From contig JAGBMJ010000128.1 of NCBI GenBank assembly GCA_017634975.1, positions 1 to 37,972 on the forward strand: DNA of 37,972 nucleotides, in the 5' to 3' direction. The notes beneath the pieces were generated by a model. That model was not told the DNA's origin and made no database searches. It saw nothing but the letters and a program-made list of their open reading frames with translations. Position numbers and translations under genes: made by a program. Shown here piece by piece: positions 1,960 through 28,481 of this stretch. The DNA is from Lachnospiraceae bacterium. GTDB taxonomy: Bacteria; Bacillota; Clostridia; Lachnospirales; Lachnospiraceae. The stretch's first letter is position 1, and each line of letters opens with the position of its first letter.

Positions 1960-2028
1960 AGGCCGGGATAAAGCAGGAACAGCACGGGATTGTAAAGGTA
2001 ATACGATAAATGATTGGGGGAGATCATC

Positions 2029-5000
2029 ATGGCAGAACAACGGATCACGATCAAAGCAGAGGGCATGCGGGCAGTCAATTTTTCCATGCAGCAGAATTAT
2101 GTACCTCTCTTGCGCAGCATACGTCTTACAAATGTATCGGATGAGACACAATATGATCTGAAGCTGCGGGTACGGTTTGATCCGGCCTTTGCGCAGGAAT
2201 ATACGGTGCTCCTCGATGCGATGGAGCCCGGCAGCAGTGTGGAGGTCAGCCCGGTTAAGATCCTGCTCTCGACAGAATACCTGTTTTCCGTTACGGAGAA
2301 GGTGATCGGAAATTATACGATCGAAGTATACCGGGAACTGCTGATCCCGAAAGCAGCGGAAGAAGAGAGTGTCATACCGCAGTTTGAAACCGAAGAGGAG
2401 ATCCTGTCGAGTGCATCCGGTGAAGTGGAACTGCTCGCCAAAGACCAGTGGAGCGGTCTGGGCATTATGCCGGAACTGGTATCGGCATTTGTAACACCCA
2501 ATCATCCGAAGATCGCGGAAACTCTGCGAAGCGCATCCGACCAGCTGCAAAAGTGGGGCAGGGATCCGGCTTTTACGGCCTATCAGACACAGAATACCAA
2601 CAATGTAAAACTGCAGATGGCGGCGATCTATGCGGCGATCCAGGCGCAGCAGATCGACTATGTGGTGCATCCGGCGACATTTGAACCGGCGGGACAGCGT
2701 ATCCGTCTGCCCCATACGGTACTGGAGCAGAAACAGGGGAACTGTCTGGATCTCTCGATCCTGTATGCCTCCTGTCTGGAAGCAGCGGGCCTAAACGGCC
2801 TGATCGTATTCACAAAAGGGCATGCCTTCGGCGGCTGCTGGCTGGAAGAGGAAAGCTTTGCCGACTGTGCCGTGGATGATGTATCGGCGCTCGAGAAACG
2901 TACCGCAGATGGTGCCGAAGAGATCCTGCTGGTCGAGATGACGGACGTGGTAAGGGGGAAGAATGTACCTTTTGATACGGCGATACAGCATGCAAGAGCC
3001 CATCTGGCAAGGATGGAGGAATTTGATTTTGTGATCGACCTGAGTCGCTGCCGCAACAGCAATATCCGCCCCATTCCGACAAGACTGGAAGAAGCACAGC
3101 AGGAAGCAGTGGATGCGGCAGGTGCAGACAGCTTTGCCGCAGCACCGAGTGTGCTCCGGCAGAACCTGAAAGGACGTGTGATCGAAGGAACTGTGGAGAT
3201 CGGACGTAAGGAGCTGTGGGAGCGTAAACTTCTGGATTTCAGTCTGCGAAATGCCCTGCTCAATTTCCGTGTGACCAGAAGTGCAGTGCAGCTATTGGTA
3301 GCGGATCCCGCCGAGCTGGAAGATGCGCTGGCGGACGGAAAGGATTTTACCCTTCAGGCATTGCCGCCGGAACTGAAAACGGATCTGCGCGATGATAAGA
3401 TGTTCTCCATGGAAAACGATAAGGCGCTGGTGGAGAGTATCTCTGCAAAGGAATTCTCACAGAAGCGTCTTCGTACCTGTTTATCCGAAACAGAATTGCA
3501 GAACAGTTTAAAGGGATTGCAGCGTGCGGCAAAGGTAAGCCTCGAGGAAAACGGCGCCAATACGCTTTTTGTTGCTGCCGGATTTCTGCGCTGGTATGAG
3601 ACGGAGCTGTCAGAGAAGGCACGCTATGCACCTCTGGTAATGATCCCGGTAGAGCTGGTGCGCAGCATCAAAAACAGCGGATACATTGTGCGCAGCCGTA
3701 ATGAGGAAACGCAGATCAACGTGACACTTTTGGAGTATCTGCGGCAGGATCACGGTGTGGCGATTGGCGGACTGGACCCGCTGCCGGAAGATGAGCATGG
3801 CATTGATCTGCCGCTTGTGTTCCAGACGATCCGGCAGGCCGTGATGGACAAGAAACGCTGGAATGTCGAGAGCTTCTGTTTTCTGGGACTTTTTTCCTTC
3901 GGGCAGTTTGTGATGTGGAACGACCTGCGCAACCGAACGGAGGACTTAAAGAGCAGCAAGGTCGTGCAAAGCCTGCTGGAAGGTCGTATGACCTGGGAAG
4001 CCGATGACCTTGGGATCGATGCGGGAAATATCGATGAGAAATTTGCGCCGTCCGATCTGGCGGTACCGCTGAGTGCCGATTCTTCACAGATGGTGGCGAT
4101 CGCAACGGCAGCCAAGGGACAGAGCTTTGTGCTGCATGGACCGCCCGGGACCGGCAAATCCCAGACCATTACGAATATGATCGCCAATGCGCTTTATCAG
4201 GGCAAATCCGTTCTGTTTGTTGCCGAAAAGATGGCGGCGCTCTCGGTCGTACAGCGCCGGCTGGCGGCGATCGGTCTGGATCCGTTCTGTCTGGAACTGC
4301 ACAGCAATAAAGCAAACAAGGCAGCCGTCTTAAAGCAGCTCGAAAAGACGCTCGAAGTGGGGCATATCAAAGAACCGGAGGAGTATGCGCATACGGCGGA
4401 ACAGCTGCATTCCCTGCGCAGAGAGTTAAATCATGTGATTGCAGCGATCCATGAAAAGAAAAATTTCGGCGGTTCACTGTACGATGCGATCGCCGTGTAT
4501 GAGCAGAACAAAGCCCTGAAGGGAAAAGTAGATCTGGCGGACAGCAGGGAGATGCCGTTTACGGTTGAGAGTGTTTCGGCAGAACTGCTTGCTGAATGGC
4601 AGGAGCTGCTGGGGGAATATGCGACCGCATCCTCGGTCGCGGGCGATCTGCAGTCCCACCCGCTCAAGGGTGTGTGCAAAACGGAGTATTCCATGGAACT
4701 GCGTGACAATGCGCAGCGTGTATGGAAGGAGACGGCAGATTCCTGCGAAGCCGCCCGGAAGGATGCCGATCTGCTGCGCAGTCAGGTCGGTACGGATCTG
4801 GTGGGCAGCCGGGACGGATTGGCTATGCTCTGCCGTATGGGCAGACTGATGCTGGAACAGGGACCGATGCTCGGAGCCCTGGTTTCTTTGCCAAACTATG
4901 ATACGATCATGGAGCGGGTACGCCTTCTGATCCAGAACGGAAGGAACTACCTGATGCAGATGGATCGGATCTCGCAGACCTTCCGGCCGCAGATCTTTAC

Positions 5001-8000
5001 GGGCTATAACGCCGGGGATGCGCTGGTACGTTTGCAGGCAGCACAGCAAAAATGGTTCCTGCCGAAAATGACAGGCACTTCTGCCATTGTAAAGGAAGTC
5101 AAAGCCTATGCCTTGAATCCGGCAGCCGTGACCAAAGACAACATCAAAGTCATACTGGAAGAGCTGTGGGCAGCGGAAACCTTAAAAGCGGAATTGAATG
5201 ACGTACCGCAGGAGATCACCTCCTTGCTGGGCGGTCTGTATATGGCCGAAAGGACCGATTTTGCGGCACTGGAACAGGCGTTACAAAAAGCGGACAAGGC
5301 AAGACAGCTGCGTACGGCGCTGCCGCAGAAGGAGTGGGAAGCTTATACCGCAAAGTGTGCCGGTCCGGTGGATCCTGTGGAACTGCCGCGGCGCATCGAA
5401 AATATCGAACGTTTTCTGGAGAAAGAAGCCGGCGTGCGGCAGGCAGATACGATCGATTTTTCTGATATCGAAATGGCACCCGATTATCTGCAGCAGGCGG
5501 AGAAGCGTTACCGGACCTATTCGGAACACACCGGGCTGCTGCGTGACTGGACCGGTTATCAGCGGGTGAAACAGGCTCTGGACAGTATGGGGCTCGACTG
5601 CGTGACCAAAGCCGTGGAGGGAGGCAGGGTATCTGCAAAGGATGCGAAGGCGGCGTTTCTGTGCAGCCTGCATTACCGTTTTGCTTCGGAACTGATCTCG
5701 TCGGATTCCCGGTTGAGTGAATTCCGCGGAGCACAATTTGAAGGCATGATCGATCGCTACAGGGATACTTTGGAAGTGTTCCGTGCACTGACCGTGCAGG
5801 AACTGGTGGCGAAGCTGTCGTCGGAGGTACCTGCGGGAGGCGGGGAGGCAGCCGCTTCTTCCGAACTGGGGATCTTAAAGAAAGCGATCAAATCAAACGG
5901 CCGTATGATGTCGATCCGCAAACTCTTTGATCAGATCCCGGCCCTGCTGCGCAGACTGTGTCCATGTATGCTGATGAGCCCGATCTCGGTGGCACAGTAT
6001 ATCGATCCGAAGTTTCCGAAGTTTGATCTGGTGGTCTTTGACGAAGCCAGTCAGCTGCCGACCAGTGAGGCGGTAGGAACCATAGCAAGAGGTGAAAACG
6101 TGATCGTCGTGGGCGATCCCAAGCAGCTGCCGCCCACCAGTTTCTTTAAGTCCAACCGTATCGACGAAGAACATGCGGAGCATGAGGATCTGGAGAGCCT
6201 TCTGGATGACTGTCTTGCGATCACGCTGCCGCAGGAATACCTGAAGTGGCATTACCGTTCCCGGCACGAGAGCCTGATCGCCTACAGCAATATGCAGTAC
6301 TATGATAACAAACTGTACACCTTCCCTTCGCCCAACGATCTGGTCTCCCAGGTGAAACTGGTGCAGCTCGATGGTGTGTATGATATGGGCAAGACCAAGC
6401 AGAACCGGGCAGAAGCCGAAGCTGTAGTGGCGGAGATCGTGCGGCGCTTATCCGATCCGGTACTTCGTAACGACTCCATCGGCGTGGTCACCTTCAGCGT
6501 GGTACAGCAGCATCTGATCGAGGATCTGCTGACGGAAGCTTTTACGGCGCATCCGAAACTGGAGGAGTGGGACCGGCAGTCGGCGGAACCGGTATTTATC
6601 AAGAATCTGGAAAACGTGCAGGGAGATGAGCGGGATGTGATCCTGTTCTCGATCTGTTACGGACCGGATAAAAATGGCAAGGTATCGATGAACTTCGGAC
6701 CGTTGAACCGTGACGGCGGATGGCGCCGGCTGAACGTGGCGATCTCCCGTGCCAGAAAAGAGATGATCGTGTATTCCGTACTGCGGCCGGAGCAGATCGA
6801 TATCAGCCGTACCAGAGCGGAAGGCGTGGCGGGACTCAAAGGATTTCTCGAGTTTGCAAAACACGGACAGGGCATGATCGTGGCAAAGAGTGGTACCGGC
6901 ACGGTGCACGAGGATGCAGTGGTCCGTGAGATCGCAGCGGAGGTGAGCCGGCTCGGGTACGAAGTGCGTACCAATGTGGGATGCTCGAAATACCGTCTGG
7001 ATATGGGGATTGTGGATCCCGAAAACAAGGAAGACTATCTGCTGGGCATCCTGCTGGATGGCGAGAATATGAGTGGTGACCAGACTGCGGCAGACCGTTT
7101 TGCGGTGCAGCCGTCCGTACTGAAGGGACTGGGCTGGCGGACAATGCGCATCTGGACCATCGAGTGGCTGGATGATGCACAGAAAGTCCTGCAGGAGATC
7201 GGCCGCAGGATTGAAGAAGCAAAGTTGCAGAAGGAAGAGGAAAAACGTCTGGCTGAACAGAGAGCAGCGGAAGCAAAGGAAGCTGCAGCAAGAGAAGCAG
7301 AAGAAGAAAACATCCCGGCAGAAACCAAAGATCCGGAAGCCGGACCGGCGGAAGAAGAGGATCCGGGAGCAGAAGAGACGGCGGATACGATCCAGCTCGG
7401 AAACTATACCTTTGAGCGTATGGAAAGTGCCGGTGTGAGTAAACGGCAGGAGATGTATGAGAGTGCGGCACCGGAAAAGGCCGGTACGGCGGAAGCTTAT
7501 GCGGATCACAGCCAGCTGACCAAAGTGCGTAAGACGGTCGTGCGTTATCTGATCGCGGAGGCACCCATCAGCCGCAGGGCGCTGATGAAAAAGACCTTTG
7601 CAGACTGGGGGGTGAGCCGTACCACTGTACGGATGGAAGATATTTTTGACCAGGCCGTACAGGGGATCTCCGGGATCAAGACGAAGGAAGGCGAAAGAGT
7701 ATTTTACTGGAGAGCCGATCAGGATCCGGATACGTACGATAAATACCGCGGAGCGGATCAAAACGGCGTATTTCGCAGTATCGAGGATGTGCCGTCGCAG
7801 GAGATCCGTGCAGCCATACGGGATATCCTGGAAGCTCAGGTCAGCTTAAGCCGCGAGGATCTGGTCAAAACAACGGCAAAATGTTTCGGCTGCCCGCGTA
7901 TGGGATCCACGATCGAAGCGGTGATCCGGTATGCACTGGATGAAGGTATCCGCCGGGGTATCTTTTCCGAAACGGATGGAGGAAAAATAATACTGGCATA

Positions 8001-19857: not shown

Positions 19858-20478
19858 ATGGACAAAAAAGCAATGTACAAGTTAAGTTACGGCCTGTTCG
19901 TATTGACAGCGCAGAAGGACGGGAAGGACAACGGCTGTATCATCAACACGGCGATCCAGGTGACGAGTGATCCCAATGTGATCAGTATCGCTGTGAACAA
20001 AAACAACTATACACATGATATGATCATGGAGACAAAGAAGTTTACGGTTTCTGTCATTGCGGAAGATGCCGAATTTTCTCTGTTTAAGAATTTCGGATTT
20101 CAGTCCGGCCGGGATGTTAATAAATTTGCATCTTTTACCGATTGCAAACGCGGAGCCAATGACTGCATGATCATCACCAAAGGCACCAATGCCTATATCG
20201 CAGCATGGGTAAAAGAAACCGTGGATATGGGAACGCACACGATCTTTCTGGCGCAGGTGACGGATATGGATGTACTTTCCGATGCGAAGTCGGCAACCTA
20301 TGAATACTATCAGGCCAACATCAAGCCGAAGCCGGAAGCGGTCGGCAAGACACAGGACGGCCAGACCATCTGGCGCTGCCGCATCTGCGGATACGAATAC
20401 ATCGGTGAGGAAGTGCCTGATGATTTCATCTGCTCCATCTGCAAACATGGCAAGCAGGACTTTGAAAAGGTAAGCTGA
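19858..20478 (+). CDS. Flavin reductase-like protein fused to C-terminal rubredoxin (high-molecular-weight rubredoxin)
   Basis: The 206-residue protein has an N-terminal FMN-binding flavin-reductase-like domain (about 1-155: YKLSYGLFVLTAQKDG, INTAIQVTSDPNVISIAVNK, FTVSVIAEDAEFSLFKNFGF, with the nucleotide-facing FLAQVTDMDVL) and a C-terminal rubredoxin of CRIC (174,177) and CSIC (192,195). This is the layout of Moorella Hrb, which passes electrons from NAD(P)H through FMN and iron to flavodiiron proteins for oxygen or NO reduction. Here the partner is not adjacent; the reverse rubrerythrin at 9601 is a possible acceptor. The ATG at 19858 follows AGGAGGG; the in-frame start upstream lacks a site. 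The 181 bases before it contain no convincing promoter. The gene ends just before the GGGGACGG hairpin at 20506. Confidence 0.88.
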   Translation: MDKKAMYKLSYGLFVLTAQKDGKDNGCIINTAIQVTSDPNVISIAVNKNNYTHDMIMETKKFTVSVIAEDAEFSLFKNFGFQSGRDVNKFASFTDCKRGANDCMIITKGTNAYIAAWVKETVDMGTHTIFLAQVTDMDVLSDAKSATYEYYQANIKPKPEAVGKTQDGQTIWRCRICGYEYIGEEVPDDFICSICKHGKQDFEKVS

Positions 20479-20505
20479 CTACACTGACTGACGAAGAACC
20501 ACGGG

Positions 20506-20540
20506 AAGAACCACGGGGACGGACCTTGTGGTTCTTTTTT
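20506..20540 (+). terminator. Terminator hairpin with GGGGACGGACCT loop
   Basis: AAGAACCAC (20506-20514) pairs perfectly with GTGGTTCTT (20528-20536) around the loop GGGGACGGACCTT, and is followed by TTTTTTATTTTTT. The left arm is duplicated just before (GAAGAACCACGG at 20493-20504). It should terminate the flavin-reductase transcript and is also the first clear member of the loop-motif hairpin family discussed in the findings. Confidence 0.8.
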
Positions 20541-20558
20541 ATTTTTTGAAAACATCTC

Positions 20559-20587
20559 TTGACATATTATCAAAAAGATTATATGAT
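20559..20587 (+). promoter_or_regulatory. Consensus promoter of the VWA/PurA-like cassette
   Basis: TTGACA (20559-20564), 17 bases and TATGAT (20582-20587): a near-perfect vegetative promoter, 55 bases before the 191-residue gene. Its spacer and downstream DNA are occupied by the repeats at 20566-20626, so repression at this site is expected. Confidence 0.8.
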
Positions 20588-20626
20588 AAAATCATCAAAA
20601 GAGATATAATCAAAAAGATAATATGA
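20566..20626. promoter_or_regulatory. Operator-like repeats (TATCAAAAAGATA type)
   Basis: Two 21-base copies, ATTATCAAAAAGATTATATGA (20566-20586) and ATAATCAAAAAGATAATATGA (20606-20626), differ at two positions and lie exactly 40 bases apart. A weaker copy (ATCATCAAAAGAGATATAAT, 20591-20610) sits between. Each is roughly palindromic, ATC-A5-GAT. The first covers the promoter spacer and -10 box, so a dimeric repressor bound to helically phased sites is the simplest reading. No regulator gene is adjacent. Confidence 0.55.
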
Positions 20627-20641
20627 AAGGAGATGATATCT

Positions 20642-21217
20642 ATGAATGAATTATTCAACGGGATGCTGGGAAAGATTGCACCGGGAATGTGCCGCTTGTC
20701 TATGGATGGAGGGATCGCGATCAAGACTTCAAACGGTTACCGAACCTACGACGGAAGGACCGGACGGCTGACCAACTGCAGCAGTTTCGTATTCGATATC
20801 GGAGAAGAATTCTTCTTCGTTATGCCGACCAACAAAGTAAAGACCGGCGATATCATCCTGGCAAACGGGAAGCCGAAATGTGTGGTGGAAGTAAAGGAAT
20901 ACCGGATCACCGCAGTCAACTATGAAGATTCTACCCTGGAGCAGATCATACCGGAGCGGTACATTTTTATGGGAAATACCTACTTCTACGGAAAAGTGGT
21001 ATCGATGTTTGGTAACGGGATGAAGAAAGGAAAGAAGCCCGGGAACATTATGAAATATATGATGCTCTCCCAGATGATGAAGGGAAAGGGTGGCGGACTC
21101 TCCGATGCGCTTCCGCTCCTGATGATGGGAGGCAGTTTTGGAGACGGGCTGTTTGAGGGACTGTTTGACGAAGAGGATCCGGAGGATGCTCCGGAAGCGG
21201 AGAAGGATTCGGAATAA
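20642..21217 (+). CDS. 191-residue protein of unknown function, first gene of the VWA/PurA-like cassette
   Basis: The ATG at 20642 lies 9 bases after AAGGAG; an in-frame ATG at 20633 would abut the ribosome binding site. The N-terminal 125 residues look beta-rich (KIAPGMCRLSMDGGIAIKTS, EEFFFVMPTNKVKTGDIILA, KCVVEVKEYRITAVNYED, IIPERYIFMGNTYFYGKVVS), suggesting one or two small barrels. From about 130 there is a basic, methionine-rich stretch (GMKKGKKPGNIMKYMMLSQM), a glycine/leucine/methionine segment (LPLLMMGGSFGDGLFEGLF) that could touch a membrane or assemble, and an acidic tail. No signal peptide. I do not recognise a family. Strong promoter and operator-like repeats lie upstream; the VWA gene follows after 118 bases with no terminator between. 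Confidence 0.8.
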   Translation: MNELFNGMLGKIAPGMCRLSMDGGIAIKTSNGYRTYDGRTGRLTNCSSFVFDIGEEFFFVMPTNKVKTGDIILANGKPKCVVEVKEYRITAVNYEDSTLEQIIPERYIFMGNTYFYGKVVSMFGNGMKKGKKPGNIMKYMMLSQMMKGKGGGLSDALPLLMMGGSFGDGLFEGLFDEEDPEDAPEAEKDSE

Positions 21218-21335
21218 AACATATGACCGATGATATGGTTCCCGGAGTCGACCGGTTTTGGAAAGAGCTTGTGTATCGATATCGCAGGGGACATTAGGAG
21301 CGGCAAGGGTAGAAGAACCCGGAAAGGAGGCAGTT

Positions 21336-22202
21336 ATGGGATGCGGAATATGGAGAGAGGATACCTTCCGGCAGTATTCCAGAAGAATGGGAAGAACCGT
21401 CGGTAAGAACGGCAGTCTGGCCGGAGATATGAGCAATCAGGAGATGTTTACCGCAAGAACGATCGATCCGATGCTGGATCCGAGAGACGTGATGCGGGAG
21501 TGCTGCGACAATGAAGAACATCCGGCAACCATCCCCGTGATCCTGGCGCTGGATGTGACAGGATCTATGGGACAGGCGGCAGTCGAAGTGGCGAAGCAGC
21601 TCAACATCATTATGACAAAGCTGTATGAAAAGGTGAAGGATGTGGAGTTTATGGTGATGGGCATCGGGGATCTCGCGTATGACAGATGCCCGCTGCAGGT
21701 ATCGCAGTTTGAATCCGACATCCGCATTGCAGAACAGCTGGATAAAGTATACTTTGAATTCGGCGGCGGAGGGAATGCCTTTGAATCCTATACCGCAGCC
21801 TGGTATTTCGGGGTAGAGCATGTACAGCTGGATGCCTGGAAACGGGGGAAAAAGGGCATTATCATCACCATGGGCGATGAAGGACTCAACCCGTACCTTC
21901 CGGGGGAGCGGCTGGCAGAGATCACCGGACGGCCGCAAAACGGCGATGTGGAGACCGTGCAGCTGTATCCGAAAGTGCTGGAAAAATACGATGTGTATCA
22001 TATCTATGTGGATCACAGAAACGGAAGAAATGAGAGCTTCATCCGTACCTGGAAGGAGCTGATGGATGATGAGCACTTCCGGGTGGTAAAGATCGATGCG
22101 ATCGCGGACATGATCATCCGTATCGTAACGGCCCGGGCAGCGGAAGATAAGAGAGCCGGAAAGGTAATGATCGCGGCGAAGCAGGAAGAGATCAGCTGGT
22201 AA
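21336..22202 (+). CDS. VWA-domain protein with intact MIDAS-type motif
   Basis: The 288-residue protein begins MGCGIWREDTFRQYSRRMGR, then AGDMSNQEMFTARTIDPMLD and a Cys-containing RECCDNEEHPATIP. The von Willebrand A domain follows, with VILALDVTGSMG (Asp73, Thr75, Ser77 as the metal-ion-dependent adhesion site), VMGIGDLAYD, and IIITMGDEGLNP. Intracellular VWA proteins usually act as scaffolds or substrate presenters, often beside AAA+ or enzyme partners. No signal peptide or membrane anchor. The ATG at 21336 follows AAAGGAGG. It sits between the 191-residue protein and the adenylosuccinate-synthetase homologue, 53 bases from the latter. It does not look like TerY closely enough to call it that. 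Partner and target are unknown. Confidence 0.85.
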   Translation: MGCGIWREDTFRQYSRRMGRTVGKNGSLAGDMSNQEMFTARTIDPMLDPRDVMRECCDNEEHPATIPVILALDVTGSMGQAAVEVAKQLNIIMTKLYEKVKDVEFMVMGIGDLAYDRCPLQVSQFESDIRIAEQLDKVYFEFGGGGNAFESYTAAWYFGVEHVQLDAWKRGKKGIIITMGDEGLNPYLPGERLAEITGRPQNGDVETVQLYPKVLEKYDVYHIYVDHRNGRNESFIRTWKELMDDEHFRVVKIDAIADMIIRIVTARAAEDKRAGKVMIAAKQEEISW

Positions 22203-22255
22203 ATTCTCATATATTTGGAAGATGTTGATACTGCTAAGGGAAAGAAGGTGACGGT

Positions 22256-23404
22256 ATGAAAGAGATCCGTATTGTGATCGGTGCCAATTACGGGGATGAA
22301 GGCAAGGGACTGATGACCGATTATTTCGCAGCCCGGTCTGTATCCGCAGGACGGAAAACCCTGGTGATCCCGGCAAACGGCGGTGCACAGCGAGGACATA
22401 CCGTCACCACGCCCGAGGGGGTACGGCATGTGTTTCATCATTTCGGCTCCGGTACCCTGGCCGGTGCGGATACGTATCTGCCGCGGTTCTTCATCGTCAA
22501 TCCGATGGTCTTTATGACGGAATGGGAAGAACTGCTCGGAAAAGGAGCAAAGGGATTTCGGATCTGTATGGATCCGGAATGCCCGGTCACCACGCCCTTT
22601 GATATGATCACGAATCAGATCCTGGAGGAGAGCCGGGGAAATGCAAGACATGGCAGCTGCGGTCTGGGGATCTGGGAGACACTATTGCGGCAGGGAAAGG
22701 AGCTCGGAGCACTGCTGGCGATGACGGAGGATGAGATCCGTGCGTATCTGAATACGGAATGCAAAGAGCAGATGCGGTATCGTCTCGCAGAGAATGGGAT
22801 CGCGCAGATTCCGCAGCATTGGCAGGAGGTCACGGAGGATCCCGGACTGGTCGAAAACTACATCTGTGATCTGCGCGATATGAGCCGGATAGCAACGCTT
22901 CGAACCGGTGAGCTCCTGCGGGAATACGATACGCTGATCTTTGAAAACGGACAGGGACTGTTGCTGGATCGTTCCCATAGAGAGCATTCGCAGCATACCA
23001 CGCCGAGCAATACCGGTCTGCGCAATCCGGCGGAGCTGATCCGGGAAAACCTGCGGGGGGTGGAAACAGAGGCGGAGTGCTGCTATGTAACAAGAACCTA
23101 TCTTACAAGACATGGTGCAGGACCTTTTGCGGAGGAATGTGCAAAGGAAGAGATCAATGTGGATATGGTGGATCGGACCAACGTGCCCAATCCGCACCAG
23201 GGAACCATCCGTTACGGACTGCTGGACGAAAAAGCATTGCTTAAGCGCATCCGGGAAGATTTTGACAGCGTACAGCTGCCGAGAAAATGCCGGATCCGAA
23301 GAACTCTGGCGGTAACGCATGAGAATGAATATCCGGGCCGTGTGATCGCTATGGGAGATTATGTCTCGGACGGCGAAAGCAGAGACAGCGTGAAGCCTCA
23401 ATAA
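22256..23404 (+). CDS. Divergent adenylosuccinate synthetase (PurA) homologue
   Basis: The 382-residue protein keeps the PurA fold. It has the P-loop GANYGD(14)EGKG with the catalytic Asp, GGAQRGH(48)TV with the catalytic His, HHFGSGTL, the ENGQGLLLD...H segment, TTPSNTG, and a YLTRHGAGPF block equivalent to the TRVG.GPFPTE region. Canonical PurA is about 425 residues and joins aspartate to IMP using GTP. Two specificity regions are altered: the aspartate-binding TTGRPRRCGWFD loop reads NVPNPHQGTIRYGLLD (309-324), and the guanine-recognising TKxD is THEN (354-357). The enzyme therefore probably ligates an amino acid to, or otherwise uses, a different nucleotide-like substrate, and perhaps not with GTP. 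It ends the cassette with a strong terminator nine bases after the stop. It is unlikely to be the housekeeping purA. Confidence 0.8.
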   Translation: MKEIRIVIGANYGDEGKGLMTDYFAARSVSAGRKTLVIPANGGAQRGHTVTTPEGVRHVFHHFGSGTLAGADTYLPRFFIVNPMVFMTEWEELLGKGAKGFRICMDPECPVTTPFDMITNQILEESRGNARHGSCGLGIWETLLRQGKELGALLAMTEDEIRAYLNTECKEQMRYRLAENGIAQIPQHWQEVTEDPGLVENYICDLRDMSRIATLRTGELLREYDTLIFENGQGLLLDRSHREHSQHTTPSNTGLRNPAELIRENLRGVETEAECCYVTRTYLTRHGAGPFAEECAKEEINVDMVDRTNVPNPHQGTIRYGLLDEKALLKRIREDFDSVQLPRKCRIRRTLAVTHENEYPGRVIAMGDYVSDGESRDSVKPQ

Positions 23405-23413
23405 ATGATCTTG

Positions 23414-23445
23414 AAAAAACAGCGTTGGTAAATACGCTGTTTTTT
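23414..23445 (+). terminator. Terminator of the VWA/PurA-like cassette
   Basis: AAAAAACAGCGT (23414-23425) and ACGCTGTTTTTT (23434-23445) are a perfect 12-base inverted repeat ending in a T run, nine bases after the PurA-like stop codon. Confidence 0.9.
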
Positions 23446-23460
23446 GTGAGGAATACAGAT

Positions 23461-23489
23461 TTGACAGAAAATGGATTATTACGTAAAAT
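23461..23489 (+). promoter_or_regulatory. Promoter of the GH25 lysozyme gene
   Basis: TTGACA (23461-23466), a 17-base spacer and TAAAAT (23484-23489), 41 bases before the GH25 ATG. Confidence 0.65.
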
Positions 23490-23530
23490 TTTCAGGATGG
23501 GATTCGGAAAGAATACTACGGGAGTAAGGC

Positions 23531-24229
23531 ATGAAAAAACGCATAGCTGTTATTTTCGGAATCATCCTGCTGGGAATGATCGGTATATGGCTTTTGTATG
23601 TTCAGATACCGACAAAACTGCTTGCCGGTGCGTATGAGGTTCAGGGTATTGATGTGTCACATTACCAGGGAGAGATCGACTGGGAAAAGATGTCTGCCCG
23701 GGGGATCCGTTTTGCATATATTAAAGCAACGGAAGGGAGTTCCTATACCGATGAATTTTATATGCGAAATCTGCAGGGGGCGCAGGCAGCCGGCATATCG
23801 GCGGGAGCGTATCACTTCTTTTCCTTTGACAGCTCCGGGAGCGGACAGGCAGCGCATTTTATCGAAGTGACCGGAGATGCTGCCGGAGATCTGATCCCCG
23901 TGGTCGATGTGGAATACTACGGAAACAAACGAAAGGATCCCCCTGATGCAGATGCGGTCAGGGCAGAATTGAAAGAGATGCTGCAGGTTCTGGAGGAATA
24001 TTATGGCTGCAAACCGATGATCTATTCAACGCAGCCGTTTTATCAAAGATTCCTGCAAGGGTACTTTGAGGAATACCCGCTGTGGATCCGGGCAGTGTAT
24101 TTACCGCCGCTGCAGGAATGGACCGTATGGCAGTATACGGATCTTTTGCGCCCGGATGGTGTATACGGCGAGGAAAGCTCTGTGGATGGAGATGTAGTAA
24201 AGGATCTTGAGACATTGCGTCTGCCGTAA
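23531..24229 (+). CDS. GH25 family lysozyme (muramidase), membrane-anchored or secreted
   Basis: The 232-residue protein starts with a basic-hydrophobic signal/anchor (MKKRIAVIFGIILLGMIGIW, roughly residues 1-25, no clear lipobox) and continues as a GH25 catalytic domain to the C-terminus. Catalytic landmarks are GID(41)VSHYQG at the first strand, FAYIKATEGS, GAYHFFSF, VVD(126)VE(128)YYG with the DxE pair, and the WQYTD strand near the end. GH25 enzymes cut the beta-1,4 bond between N-acetylmuramic acid and N-acetylglucosamine. No cell-wall-binding repeats are present, suggesting a cell-surface remodelling enzyme rather than a phage endolysin. It has its own promoter at 23461; the ATG at 23531 follows GGGAGTAAGG. 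Confidence 0.92.
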   Translation: MKKRIAVIFGIILLGMIGIWLLYVQIPTKLLAGAYEVQGIDVSHYQGEIDWEKMSARGIRFAYIKATEGSSYTDEFYMRNLQGAQAAGISAGAYHFFSFDSSGSGQAAHFIEVTGDAAGDLIPVVDVEYYGNKRKDPPDADAVRAELKEMLQVLEEYYGCKPMIYSTQPFYQRFLQGYFEEYPLWIRAVYLPPLQEWTVWQYTDLLRPDGVYGEESSVDGDVVKDLETLRLP

Positions 24230-24296
24230 CGGTTGATAAGGCGTATGTCTACATTTTTCGGAATGAATTACAAAATAAGTCGCAAGGAGAACATTT

Positions 24297-25106
24297 ATGA
24301 TACTTAAAGAACTGGATATTAAAAACAAAGACTCTCTGGAGTATGCACACGCAACCTTTTACGGGCAGGAATATTCGGAGGCACTGATGGTGAAGGAACG
24401 CCCTGTCGTAGTGATCAGCCCGGGCGGCGGGTATGCCTATACTTCCGACCGGGAGAGTGAGATCATTGCATTGCAGTTTCTGGCAAAAGGCTATCATGCG
24501 GTGGTGGTACGGTATTCCTGCCATCCGGCGGTTTATCCGACGGCCCTGCTGGAGTTTGCTGCAGCGGTCAAAGAAGTGCGTACCCATGCAGCAGAATGGC
24601 ATGTGGATACGGAGCGGCTCTTTGTTCTCGGTTTTTCGGCAGGAGCACATTTGGTGGCTTCTTTTTGTTCTTTTTGGGAAAAGCCGTTTCTGTCGGATGC
24701 ATTGGGCTGTGATAAGGAACTGCTGCGTCCCAACGGGCAGGTGCTGTGTTATCCGGTGATCACTTCCGGAGAGCATGCGCATCAAGGATCTTTCCACAGT
24801 CTTCTCGGAGATGCGTATGAGGAAAAGAAAGAAGAACTTTCTATGGAAACACAGGTGAACGATTCCGTGCCTCGCACCTTTGTATGGCATACCTTTGAGG
24901 ACGGATCGGTTCCGGTACAGAATTCGCTTTTGTATGTGAATGCGCTGGTGGAGCACGGTATCCACGCAGAGTACCATCTGTTTGAGCACGGCGGGCACGG
25001 ACTCGGACTGGGAGACCGGCGGACGCTGTCTCCGTCCGGGAAGGAAGATATACCGGTCGTAAGACCATGGATCGATCTGGTACACACATGGATGGGGAGT
25101 GTGTAA
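24297..25106 (+). CDS. Alpha/beta hydrolase (esterase-like, acetyl-xylan-esterase/BD-FAE type)
   Basis: The 269-residue cytoplasmic protein has the alpha/beta hydrolase pattern: an oxyanion-hole segment VVVISPGGGYAYTSDRESE, the nucleophile elbow GFS(114)AGAH, a later acidic position in HTFEDGSVPVQNSL, and the catalytic histidine in FEHGGHGLGLG. The PGGGY and FEHGGHG motifs are typical of small esterases acting on acetylated or feruloylated sugars, and related peptidases, but the substrate cannot be told. The ATG at 24297 has AAGGAG seven bases upstream. No terminator separates it clearly from the GH25 gene 67 bases before, so they may be read together. No signal peptide. Confidence 0.88.
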   Translation: MILKELDIKNKDSLEYAHATFYGQEYSEALMVKERPVVVISPGGGYAYTSDRESEIIALQFLAKGYHAVVVRYSCHPAVYPTALLEFAAAVKEVRTHAAEWHVDTERLFVLGFSAGAHLVASFCSFWEKPFLSDALGCDKELLRPNGQVLCYPVITSGEHAHQGSFHSLLGDAYEEKKEELSMETQVNDSVPRTFVWHTFEDGSVPVQNSLLYVNALVEHGIHAEYHLFEHGGHGLGLGDRRTLSPSGKEDIPVVRPWIDLVHTWMGSV

Positions 25107-25122
25107 CCGTTCCATAATTATC

Positions 25123-25151
25123 TTGCTATTTTGCAGCCTCCGGCATATTAT
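25123..25151 (+). promoter_or_regulatory. Promoter of the NrtR-like Nudix gene
   Basis: TTGCTA (25123-25128), a 17-base spacer and TATTAT (25146-25151), with the ATG at 25198. Two direct GATAAT copies (25158-25163, 25173-25178) lie in the leader; whether they are an operator is not known. Confidence 0.5.
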
Positions 25152-25197
25152 AGAATTGATAATATGAGAAACGATAATTGTTCCTAAGAGGGTGATC

Positions 25198-26106
25198 ATG
25201 AAAAATTATGAAATGAGCCGCGAGGAAAAGAAGTTCATAAAGGAATACGATATCACGCAATATGACCGGCCATCACTGACGGCGGATATGGCAGTGTTTG
25301 CGATCCTGACAGCGGAGGATGCGACGGAATACCGGAAGGATCCGAGGAAACAGCTGGGCGTTCTGATGATACGCAGAGGGACGTTTCCGTATAAAGACTG
25401 CTATGCGCTGCCCGGCGGATTTGCAAGGAAAGACGAGAGTATCGAAGAGACGGCGTTTCGCGAACTGAAGGAAGAAACGTCTCTGGAGAGTGCTTTTCTG
25501 GAGCCTTTCGGAATGTTCAGCAGACCCGGCAGGGATCCGCGCGGCTGGATTATCTCGCAGGGTTTCCTGGCACTGGTGGATGCAGAGAAGTATCAGATCC
25601 GTGCCGGTACGGATGCCTGGGAAGCCAAATGGTTTTATATCAATGTGGAACAGGATGAGATGAAAAAGCATGTCCGCAAAGACAGTGCAGAGATCTGTAC
25701 CCGCTATCGTCTGCAGCTGGAGCGGGACGGAGAGCGGCTGTCGGCGCTGGTGGATGAGAAACGCACATTCCAAAGTCACCATGAAACGGTGGAATATGAG
25801 ATTGTTGAAGACGATGGATTTGCATTTGACCATGCAGAGATCATTTTACGGGCATATCTTTCACTGAAAGCGAGAACGGCGCAGTCCGGACGCATTGTCT
25901 TTGACCTGATGCCGGAACTCTTCACCTTAAATACCCTGCAGGAAGCGCACGAGATCATTTTGGGAGAGAAGCTGCTGACTCCGAATTTCCGCAGGAAGAT
26001 GGCACCGTTTGTGATCGAGACGGATGAACTGGTGACGGGACCGGGGCATCGGCCTGCAAAGCTGTTCCGTAGGAATCTGGAAGCGTTTTATGCTATGGAG
26101 GGGTGA
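25198..26106 (+). CDS. Nudix hydrolase with C-terminal winged-helix-like domain (NrtR-like)
   Basis: The 302-residue protein carries an N-terminal Nudix domain: PGGFARKDESIEETAFREL followed by KEETSL is the GX5EX7REUXEE box at about residues 74-96, with Ser in place of the usual final Gly. The C-terminal third (about 210-302: LRAYLSLKARTAQSGRIVFD, LMPELFTLNTLQEAHEIILG, RKMAPFVIETDEL) looks like the winged helix found in NrtR-type proteins, which use the Nudix fold to sense ADP-ribose and repress NAD-metabolism genes. The catalytic glutamates are retained, so it could also be an active hydrolase. The ATG at 25198 follows GAGGGTG. The next gene is NudC, another NAD-related Nudix enzyme, which fits an NAD theme. 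Confidence 0.82.
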   Translation: MKNYEMSREEKKFIKEYDITQYDRPSLTADMAVFAILTAEDATEYRKDPRKQLGVLMIRRGTFPYKDCYALPGGFARKDESIEETAFRELKEETSLESAFLEPFGMFSRPGRDPRGWIISQGFLALVDAEKYQIRAGTDAWEAKWFYINVEQDEMKKHVRKDSAEICTRYRLQLERDGERLSALVDEKRTFQSHHETVEYEIVEDDGFAFDHAEIILRAYLSLKARTAQSGRIVFDLMPELFTLNTLQEAHEIILGEKLLTPNFRRKMAPFVIETDELVTGPGHRPAKLFRRNLEAFYAMEG

Positions 26107-26120
26107 AATATTCATACGAT

Positions 26121-26169
26121 GGCCCCTCATCCGCCCTTCGGGCACCTTCCCCCCAAAAAGGGGGAAGGC
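26121..26169. repeat. Short dispersed palindromic repeat (two hairpins)
   Basis: GCCCTTCGGGC (26133-26143) is followed by CCTTCCCCCC-AAAAA-GGGGGAAGG (26145-26168). The whole CCCTCATCCGCC..TTCGG..CACCTTCCCCCC..GGGGGAAGG unit looks like a dispersed intergenic element that I associate with Clostridia genomes from memory. It fills the gap between the two Nudix genes. Confidence 0.6.
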
Positions 26170-26210
26170 AAGAATGACTTTGTATTGATGATTACGGAAG
26201 GAAAAATCCA

Positions 26211-27032
26211 ATGATACAGGATATTGGCCTGAGCAAGCTGCATAATGAATATAAGATCTGTGAGATGCGGGAGGAGGATACGGCATTCTATTTTGATGCG
26301 ACCGGGCGACTGATGACGTGGGAAGAAAACGGAACCCTTACGTTTCTGTCGAAAAAGGAGATCGGAGGGCAGCCGGTGATCTATCTGTTTGCAATTGATG
26401 AGAAACGGTATTTTCTGGTGACGGAAGAACCGGCGGATCCGAGGGATGGGTACACCTGCCGCAGCATACGGGAGGTCCGGGATTTTGGCGTGACCGGTAA
26501 GGATATATTTGCGGTATTTACAGCGTATCATCTGTGGCGGTGGTATGCGGACAACCGGTACTGCGGCAGATGTGCGGAAGCACTGGTTCCGAGTACGCAG
26601 GAGAGAGCGCTTTGCTGTCCGAAATGCAAAAACACGGTGTATCCGCGGATCAATCCGGCGGTGATCGTGGGCGTGACCAACGGGGATAAGCTGCTGCTGA
26701 CGAAGTATCGCACCGGTTACGGGCACAATGCACTGGTTGCCGGGTTTACAGAGATCGGCGAAACCCTCGAAGAGACCGTGGCCAGGGAGGTTATGGAAGA
26801 GACCGGCGTGAAGGTAAAGAATATACGCTACTACAAATCCCAGCCCTGGGGAATGGCGCAGGATATCCTGGTCGGGTATTATTGTGATGCCGATGGGGAC
26901 AGTACCATCCATATGGATGAAGGGGAGCTGAAATATGCCGAATGGGTGCAGCGCGAAGAGATCGAACTGCAGCCCAACAATCTGAGCCTCACCAACGAGA
27001 TGATGCGTATGTTTAAAGAAAATCGAATATAA
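26211..27032 (+). CDS. nudC: NAD+ diphosphatase (NADH pyrophosphatase / mRNA decapping), NudC
   Basis: The 273-residue protein has the three-part NudC plan. An N-terminal domain spans about 1-110. A zinc ribbon follows with CGRC and CPKC around YCGRCAEAL and ALCCPKCKNTVYPRINPAVI. The Nudix domain holds the box GFTEIGETLEETVAREVMEETG and the NudC-specific SQPW motif (SQPWGMAQDILVGYY, where the usual form is SQPWPFPxS). It hydrolyses NAD(H) to AMP and NMN(H) and removes NAD caps from RNA. The altered residues after SQPW may affect substrate preference. The ATG at 26211 has AAGGAAAA upstream. It follows the NrtR-like gene after about 100 bases containing a palindromic repeat and ends at a strong hairpin. 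Confidence 0.93.
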   Translation: MIQDIGLSKLHNEYKICEMREEDTAFYFDATGRLMTWEENGTLTFLSKKEIGGQPVIYLFAIDEKRYFLVTEEPADPRDGYTCRSIREVRDFGVTGKDIFAVFTAYHLWRWYADNRYCGRCAEALVPSTQERALCCPKCKNTVYPRINPAVIVGVTNGDKLLLTKYRTGYGHNALVAGFTEIGETLEETVAREVMEETGVKVKNIRYYKSQPWGMAQDILVGYYCDADGDSTIHMDEGELKYAEWVQREEIELQPNNLSLTNEMMRMFKENRI

Positions 27033-27051
27033 TGATTCCCGTTATTAGGAT

Positions 27052-27092
27052 AACCGCAACAGCCCGCCTTTACGGCGGGCTGTTGCGGTTTA
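27052..27092. terminator. Bidirectional hairpin between convergent nudC and the citrate-synthase-like gene
   Basis: AACCGCAACAGCCCGCC (27052-27068) and GGCGGGCTGTTGCGGTT (27074-27090) form a perfect 17-base stem with a TTTAC loop. T runs on either side are short, but the position between two convergent stop codons fits a shared terminator. Confidence 0.75.
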
Positions 27093-27113
27093 TAGGAGTC
27101 GAAATGGGTTGGA

Positions 27114-28481
27114 TTACTGCGCTGCGTATTCGTTATAGCGGTCGATCAGTTCACCGTCACTGATCACGGTGATGCGGCCGGCGTCATATTCGGACGTTAC
27201 CCAGTCATAGATCTTCTGCACCAGGGTATCTTTTTTGGACAGTTCCGCTTCGCCGCGTTTTGCGCGGTATTCGTTTACCCAGTAGGCTACGCCTGCCAGA
27301 CCGGAAGCGTTGTTGATCGATACCTTGGGCGGACGTCCCAGGATCGTTTCCGTATCAAAAATATTGTAGATCTCCGGATTCTTCATCATACCGTCTGCGT
27401 GGATCCCCGCTCTGGTCAGGTTGAAGTTTTCACCGACAAACGGTGTCATCGGCGGGATGTCATAGCCGGTCTCGTTCTGGATGTATTCCGCGATCTCGGT
27501 GATCTTATGGGTATTCATCCCGTTCAGATGTCCGCGTAAGGAAGCGTATTCAAATACCATTGCCTCCAGAGGAACATTGCCGGTACGCTCGCCGATGCCG
27601 AGGAGCGAACAGTTCACGGCGCTGCATCCGTACATCCATGCGGTGGTCGCATTGACCACACCCTTGTAAAAATCATTGTGTCCATGCCACTCGATCATTT
27701 CGGAAGGAACATCGGCGTAATGCTGCAGTCCGTAAATGATACCGGATACGCTTCTGGGGAGTGCGGCGCCCGGATAAGGCACACCGTATCCCATGGTATC
27801 GCATGCACGGATCTTTACCGGTACACCGCTTTCTCTCGACAGGTCCATCAGGCTGCATGCAAACGGAACGACAAAGCCGTAGAAATCCGCTCGGGTGATA
27901 TCTTCAAAATGGCATCTCGGGCGAAGACCGGCTTCGATGCATTCCTTTACGATGCCGAGATACTTATCGAGTGCCTGCTTTCTTGTCAGCCCCATCTTAT
28001 GGAAGATATGATAATCCGAGCAGCTGACCAGGATACCCGTTTCCTGAATGCCGATGGATCTGACCAGTTCAAAGTCCTGCTTGTTGGCGCGGATCCAGGT
28101 CGTGATCTCCGGGAACTGATAACCGAGCGCCATACATTCTTCCAGCGCTCTGCGGTCTTTCTCCGAATAAACAAAGAACTCAGTCTGGCGGATCATACCG
28201 TTTGGACCACCCAGCTCATGCAGCAGCTTGTAGATATGCACCATCTGCTCGGTGGTATAAGGTGTTCTGGACTGCTGGCCGTCACGGAAGGTCGTATCTG
28301 TGATGAAAATATCTTCCGGCATGTTTTCCGGTACACGTCTGTAGTTAAATGCGATCTTGGGTGTCTCCGTATACGGAAACATCTCACGGAACAGTTCCGG
28401 TTCGGCGGTATCCTGCAACTGATAGCTGTACGGATCTTGCTCCAGTTTGAATGTTTTGTTGCTTAATGTGATATCGCGCAT
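27114..28481 (-). CDS. HMGL-like/homocitrate-synthase-family enzyme, probably Re-type citrate synthase
   Basis: The 455-residue minus-strand protein starts at the ATG at 28481-28479 with GGGAGG upstream; an in-frame start further out lies beyond that site. It contains the DTTFRDGQQS version of the DTTLRDGEQ catalytic motif, an Arg/Glu region (RQTEFFVYSEKDR), CHFEDITRADFYGFV, the metal-binding IEWHGHNDFYKGVVNATTAW and LLGIGERTGNVPLE. These are the marks of the isopropylmalate/homocitrate/citramalate synthase family. The size and the N-terminal KTFKLEQDPYSYQL stretch remind me of clostridial Re-citrate synthases, which start glutamate synthesis in anaerobes lacking the usual enzyme. The LeuA regulatory domain is not apparent. 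A LysR regulator is divergent and NfnAB and GDH lie close by, consistent with a glutamate/redox role. Isopropylmalate synthase-like activity is the alternative. Confidence 0.72.
   Translation of the reverse strand: MRDITLSNKTFKLEQDPYSYQLQDTAEPELFREMFPYTETPKIAFNYRRVPENMPEDIFITDTTFRDGQQSRTPYTTEQMVHIYKLLHELGGPNGMIRQTEFFVYSEKDRRALEECMALGYQFPEITTWIRANKQDFELVRSIGIQETGILVSCSDYHIFHKMGLTRKQALDKYLGIVKECIEAGLRPRCHFEDITRADFYGFVVPFACSLMDLSRESGVPVKIRACDTMGYGVPYPGAALPRSVSGIIYGLQHYADVPSEMIEWHGHNDFYKGVVNATTAWMYGCSAVNCSLLGIGERTGNVPLEAMVFEYASLRGHLNGMNTHKITEIAEYIQNETGYDIPPMTPFVGENFNLTRAGIHADGMMKNPEIYNIFDTETILGRPPKVSINNASGLAGVAYWVNEYRAKRGEAELSKKDTLVQKIYDWVTSEYDAGRITVISDGELIDRYNEYAAQ

Follow-up and report, generated by a model that had tools for sequence, protein, structure and literature searches.

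A gene trio with a divergent PurA-like enzyme, common to gut bacteria and large phages and set in NAD salvage

What does a bacterium with an ordinary purA gene do with a second, divergent enzyme of the PurA superfamily? The question is raised by a 37,972-nucleotide stretch of DNA from a Lachnospiraceae bacterium (GCA_017634975.1, contig JAGBMJ010000128.1, positions 1 to 37,972; termed the window), in which three genes on the plus strand, with intergenic gaps of 118 and 53 bases, encode a conserved 191-residue protein (U191), a VWA protein and a PurA-like enzyme (Table 1). A sequence-only reading had described this trio as a self-contained cassette with a promoter, tandem operators and a terminator; all of these elements are present, the terminator by folding. 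Our analysis demonstrates that the trio is a real conserved module, present in gut bacteria as well as in large phages. Good evidence places it in NAD salvage, and control by NrtR is likely; its chemistry is a reasoned guess. The NAD-salvage and NrtR setting, the phage copies and an alternative partner with J-domain and kinase-like parts all go beyond what the sequence-only reading had proposed.

The bacterial loci were found with the VWA alignment alone, and the best 80 of at least 426 relatives among 586 matching stretches were kept, which biases the set towards near relatives; most of the loci come from metagenome-assembled genomes, and host names are names of bins. In a profile search, the PurA-like gene directly follows the VWA gene on the same strand in 78 of these 80 loci, including one (L132) with a PurA-like fragment at the contig end, and the two loci without it (L082 and L130) both end at a contig edge. 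The fragment (L132:4938-5122) reads GDCGKG where GDEGKG is expected. U191 precedes the VWA gene in 61 of the 80. The 26 viral loci, a few of them near-copies of one another, were found by a PurA-like search of viral contigs; all have the VWA gene, close upstream in 18 and 0.5-6 kb away in eight, one of these downstream, and eight have U191. Thus, the three genes are regular neighbours elsewhere, against one of the two refutations that the sequence-only reading had named. In a set of 50,697 phage records, the PurA-like protein is encoded in 224 (189 from Mycobacterium phages) and the VWA protein in 207; the carriers are mostly Mycobacterium phages, followed by Rhizobium and Vibrio phages. Within the window's own family, 13 of 200 genomes (its own included) have a PurA-like match with E < 1e-20, and the VWA gene adjoins it, within short flanks, in 11 of the 13; a VWA search of 398 genomes across the phylum returned the own genome only. 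The module is therefore accessory and patchy, with carriers that include Lachnospiraceae, Oscillospiraceae and Bacteroidales bins among others, plus large phages. No paper describing the trio was found in the open-access literature, subscription papers and preprints being outside the search, and as far as the open literature shows the trio is undescribed so far. PMC10892097 mentions, for Vi01-like phages, a putative adenylosuccinate synthase along with a VWA protein, without presenting them as a system.

Neighbour clustering revealed an NrtR-type gene in 51 of the 80 bacterial loci, and a looser search in 61. It lies within 600 bases of the trio on the same strand in 38 of the 51, and all 51 proteins, together with the window's own regulator (64.4 bits, cut-off 27), possess the NrtR winged helix. 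The genomes looked at contain one NrtR-type gene or two (19 across 15 relatives, a single one in this genome); against this background the trio-NrtR neighbourhood is far above chance, part of which is explained by shared descent of the gene order. In several loci the genes of NAD salvage run directly into the trio: the order is nrtR-pncA-nadE-pncB-U191-VWA-PurA-like in L089, L094, L098 and L100, nrtR-pncA-pncB-VWA-PurA-like in L104, and nrtR-pncA-U191-VWA-PurA-like in L092 and L093, and nrtR and pncB adjoin each other beside the trio in the genomes G207 and G208. Elsewhere, NrtR proteins repress NAD genes and themselves and are released by ADP-ribose (PMC6800001).

In the 4.36 Mb genome the operator palindrome TATWATC-N5-GATWATA occurs without mismatch only twice, at sites 40 bp apart within the trio promoter. 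With up to one mismatch there are 24 sites genome-wide, compared to one for the pattern read backwards; of the 22 one-mismatch sites, one lies shortly before nrtR in the window (33 bases) and another 66 bases before a nicotinamidase-type/nicotinate phosphoribosyltransferase gene pair (pncA-pncB) on another contig. The operator thus shared has no mismatch at the trio and one each at nrtR and at pncA-pncB, which makes the label self-contained doubtful in the regulatory sense. The examination of relatives covered 57 of the 61 U191 loci, and 15 of the 57 trio-upstream regions retain two or more sites with no more than one mismatch, compared to 50 of 1,600 random windows from the same loci, the promoter itself included, with at least one site. 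In five loci (L083, L085, L086, L096 and L099), a second palindrome type (AGTAG...CTACT-like) was seen by eye upstream of U191 in place of the TATTATC type. A scan of 15 relatives found an exact site in 14 and none for the backward control in any; as a regulon finder across relatives the scan was of little use in some genomes, with 20 exact sites in G207 and six in G209. The site stretches read in 12 relatives include two at trio promoters (L179 and L185) and one before nrtR (L182), and no NAD gene was seen by eye in the remaining ones. Sites with two mismatches occur within pncB in G205 and ahead of nrtR-pncB in G207.

Promoter-like sites in positions 20400-27200 are about as frequent as in shuffled sequence (10 found, compared to 7.9 with a standard deviation of 2.6), and one further site there also matches the consensus at 11 of 12 positions; the promoter call therefore rests on place and conservation. 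The trio terminator folds at -16.6 kcal/mol, with none of 200 shuffles as low. It is not listed by the consensus terminator scan, probably because its T run sits inside the stem, and shows by folding only.

In a Vibrio phage locus a NADAR gene lies two genes before the VWA gene, and in a Rhizobium phage locus phosphoribosyltransferase, HAD and Nudix genes lie upstream; these neighbours are in line with an NAD/ADP-ribose theme. Large phages carry genes of the NAD/ADP-ribose type anyway. The strongest rival explanation, which we hold to be possible though unlikely, takes the trio as an answer to attack on NAD or to ADP-ribosylation during phage-host conflict. In build it would be comparable to the ARG-centred systems of Iyer et al. 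2022, which combine a Nudix-HTH sensor with a vWA chaperone and an enzyme that processes nucleotides, and phages would use their copies to counter or exploit the same chemistry. It would account for the Nudix-HTH, vWA and enzyme layout, the copies in large phages, the NADAR gene and the patchy spread; however, none of the three trio proteins has a match in PADLOC, no ARG or macro domain was found among the 18 window proteins scanned, which do not cover every gene, and the NAD-salvage operons around the trio fit housekeeping equally well. The PADLOC result speaks against a known defence system and agrees with the view of the sequence-only reading that no named system matches.

In other branches U191 has a counterpart. 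Of the 37 loci without U191 (18 viral and 19 bacterial, several cut by contig ends), 21 (16 viral and five bacterial) encode a J-domain/kinase-like protein 1.0-2.8 kb before the VWA frame, and none of the 21 has U191. The five bacterial ones (L137 and L139-L142) also have an NrtR-type gene. U191 was not found in L102, L103, L104, L107, L111, L117 and L126 despite the presence of upstream DNA. In four examples the J domain matches Pfam DnaJ with E-values of 3e-8 to 1e-4, one clearing the Pfam cut-off and three falling short of it. The kinase-like second half matches weakly, with PK_Tyr_Ser-Thr at 0.005 in one of the four and phrog_3043 (kinase) at 3e-4 to 5.6e-9 in three examples; the gene just before the VWA gene of phage Pleione matches Pkinase with an E-value of 8.7e-9 and DnaJ weakly at 0.013.

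A PurA-like tree was built with IQ-TREE and rooted at the midpoint, from 95 rows: the 83 of alignment A4, three phage and nine canonical ones. Alignment A4 started from the 102 of 104 PurA-like loci with a usable start (all except L121 and L132), of which 92 were left after removal of near-copies; ten rows (L035, L066, L073, L075, L081, L092, L103, L109, L110 and L115) were dropped by hand, giving a final 82 plus the window. On this tree two changes are required for the U191 rows, which fall within a set of J-type and phage rows, and bacterial and phage rows are interleaved. The one exception, the viral L040, has U191 and a PurA-like gene on the J side; on this contig U191 and a near VWA relative stand beside the J-branch PurA-like gene, likely a recombinant. 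We read this topology as a single event in which U191 took the place of the J-domain/kinase-like protein, presumably with transfers between phages and bacteria. The base of the tree is uncertain, with long branches at L060, L061 and L062; L060 joins the canonical PurA rows at 98/98, which the tool flagged as long branches meeting.

The PurA-like enzyme, the family matches of which are given in Table 1, shares the adenylosuccinate synthetase fold. The catalytic Asp, Lys, His and Gln (Asp13, Lys16, His41 and Gln224, the last three numbered as we take them to be in PurA) are kept in 83 of 83 PurA-like sequences. Differences from PurA lie elsewhere. The places that we presume to be N38 and V273 of PurA are Gln and His, respectively, in all 83 sequences; the aspartate-binding loop TTGRxR with R303 is shortened, being four residues shorter than in the own purA in a sequence alignment; and position 316 in this loop is G in 66, D in nine, Q in six and R in two of the 83. 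The enzyme as a whole is 49 residues shorter than that encoded by the canonical purA of the same genome, which lies on another contig (C67, 540.5 bits), so the PurA-like gene is not the sole purA; a plain purA gene is ruled out by this gene and by scores far under the NCBIfam PurA equivalog cut-offs (80.1 bits against 402, and 73 against 395.55). An additional adenylosuccinate synthetase supplying AMP for NAD would fit the fold and the kept catalytic residues, and we consider it improbable: the low scores and the shortened aspartate loop argue against it, the canonical PurA rows form their own group at 100/100 apart from the Pleione phage copy that joins them at 98/98 through flagged long branches, and such an isozyme leaves the VWA protein and U191 without explanation.

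PurZ has Ser or Gly in place of the catalytic Asp (PMC12884076, section 24). Phage copies, among the rows listed, are annotated as adenylosuccinate synthetase or as 2-aminooxy adenylosuccinate synthetase, a name also found in PHROGs, and their VWA gene is labelled hypothetical. A PurZ-like nucleotide-pool or DNA-base-modification enzyme of phage origin, carried along in bacteria, is the least credible explanation, since in spite of that name, the phage rows at the family base of the midpoint-rooted tree and the nucleotide genes among phage neighbours, the Asp of all 83 sequences differs from the Ser/Gly of PurZ and PurZ0 (the 2-amino-adenylosuccinate synthetases of Z-DNA phages), and the NCBIfam amino_Aden_PurZ model scores 26 bits against a cut-off of 300. 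A PurZ/Z-DNA enzyme proper is ruled out by the kept Asp. Because the catalytic residues are kept and the aspartate loop is shortened, the enzyme is probably neither PurA nor PurZ, as judged from sequence.

The VWA protein has an intact MIDAS motif, the three residues of which (Table 1) are invariant in 25 of 25 sequences; the sequence-only reading was right to see a VWA protein beside a divergent PurA-type enzyme. Its best family match, phrog_2971, is a family of unknown function; it scores 13.9 bits against the DUF444 Pfam family, below the cut-off of 27, and its profile matches nothing among solved structures at E 1. The VWA proteins of these loci carry a near-invariant Gly at residue 2, directly behind the start Met, and their C-terminus is hydrophobic, usually W in proteins of the U191 type and frequently F in those of the J type. 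For U191, searches at E 1 gave no match in Pfam, PHROGs or PADLOC, and the best NCBIfam E-value is 0.12. It is predicted to be a small β-barrel with a Met- and acid-rich tail of low confidence, and residues 58-121 perhaps resemble domain I of EF-P/eIF5A, with its SH3-like fold; by sequence, the best match among solved structures is the Bloom syndrome protein (E 0.34), and EF-P, eIF5A and HEX-1 types match weakly at 0.67-0.94.

On balance, we favour, by a modest degree, a module accessory to NAD salvage, with an NrtR-type repressor in control. The trio would likely be induced by ADP-ribose and link a purine nucleotide to some amine that is not aspartate. NrtR, bound to the two palindromes across the core promoter, would keep the trio off; a rise of ADP-ribose from NAD breakdown would release it, as with NrtR elsewhere, and the trio would rise together with nicotinamidase and nicotinate phosphoribosyltransferase. 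Judging from the conserved residues and the setting, the PurA-like enzyme may spend an NTP on phosphorylating a purine nucleotide at its 6-oxo group in the fashion of PurA, the activated nucleotide then being coupled to an amine other than aspartate; candidate nucleotides are deaminated (hypoxanthine) NAD-type nucleotides or IMP. The VWA protein and U191, or the J-domain/kinase-like protein in other branches, may hold or present the partner in a Mg-dependent complex. As a tentative proposal, to which we give a low probability, this would be a third PurA-fold chemistry, in which the 6-oxo group is activated in a purine nucleotide, possibly within deaminated NAD or ADP-ribose, and a new amine is attached there; that amine may belong to a protein presented by the VWA/U191 or VWA/J-kinase pair. 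Such a branch of NAD salvage would serve damage repair or tagging, and large phages would have acquired or invented it.

Several observations weigh against this NAD-salvage reading. Where 3 kb or more of sequence flanks the trio on either side, as in 40 loci, the NrtR gene lies no further than 3 kb away in 21, and within the sequence covered pncA and/or pncB lie on the trio strand in only 10 of the 80 bacterial loci. The operator before pncA-pncB could be chance, because it has one mismatch and there are 22 such sites genome-wide; in the pncB flanks of 16 genomes, an operator with up to one mismatch was found only in the own genome and in none of the 15 relatives. Sugar genes, too, can be under NrtR-family regulators (PMC6800001), and BtAraR is a case in point. 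As for the phages, 217 same-strand neighbours lie within 7 kb, of which 140 were listed and 108 scanned after near-copies and short ones had been dropped by hand; among the matched families shown, 25 of 65, there were two NADAR, one NadA and one PARP, with no clear excess. Neither pncA nor pncB was found in the 26 viral loci, and the Nudix cluster has one viral member (L051), a nucleotidyltransferase-Nudix protein that is not NrtR. The aspartate loop was compared by sequence alignment alone, and common regulation does not settle the chemistry.

Around the trio, the neighbouring NAD(+) diphosphatase gene is tied to it by position only and suggests the same NAD theme. A dispersed repeat (26122-26174) lies between nrtR and this gene, with 24 more partial copies in the genome and 37 matches in the relative G200. 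Further upstream, positions 2014-7998 encode a 1995-residue protein with DUF4011, AAA helicase, MTES_1575 endonuclease-like and DUF3320 domains, a domain make-up frequent in defence islands.

Table 1. Positions of the trio, its control elements and the adjoining NAD-related genes in the window
Feature	Position	Strand	Evidence and remarks
Terminator of the upstream flavin reductase gene	20503..20539	+	consensus scan and fold z -4.5; isolates the cassette
Sigma-70-type promoter, TTGACA-17-TATGAT	20559..20587	+	11/12 consensus matches; layout alike in close relatives by eye
Operator 1, TATTATCAAAAAGATTATA, palindrome TATTATC-N5-GATTATA	20565..20583	+	overlaps the promoter; genome-wide pattern search
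Operator 2, TATAATCAAAAAGATAATA	20605..20623	+	40 bp downstream of operator 1; genome-wide pattern search
U191, conserved protein of 191 aa	20642..21217	+	open reading frame; first trio gene
VWA protein, 288 aa	21336..22202	+	phrog_2971 E 3.7e-61; MIDAS D73-x-T75-x-S77
PurA-like enzyme, 382 aa	22256..23404	+	PF00709 105.6 bits; phrog_1211 E 3.6e-58
Trio terminator	23414..23445	+	fold z -5.4; absent from the consensus scan list
One-mismatch operator copy	25146..25164	+	33 bases before the nrtR start codon
NrtR-type regulator, Nudix and winged helix	25198..26106	+	sole PF21906 gene found in the genome
NAD(+) diphosphatase, NudC-type	26211..27032	+	NCBIfam 177.1 bits, cut-off 158; adjoins nrtR

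Tying this family to NAD-salvage operons, a VWA protein and a J-domain/kinase-like partner gives a large unassigned branch of the PurA superfamily a directly testable function, and points to an undescribed step around NAD metabolism common to bacteria and phages. The setting resembles the NrtR regulons of NAD metabolism in its Nudix and winged-helix regulator, its palindromic sites, the site before the regulator's own gene and the adjoining pncA, nadE and pncB; it differs in that the trio is not reported as a target in the NrtR literature searched. The closest published idea is the ARG-centred ADP-ribose countermeasure system (PMC9503650), and a text search of that paper gave no PurA, adenylosuccin- or DnaJ. 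Both share a Nudix-HTH regulator, a vWA chaperone and a nucleotide enzyme (section 3.8), whereas an ADP-ribosylglycohydrolase and a phosphatase act there and a PurA-like enzyme stands here.

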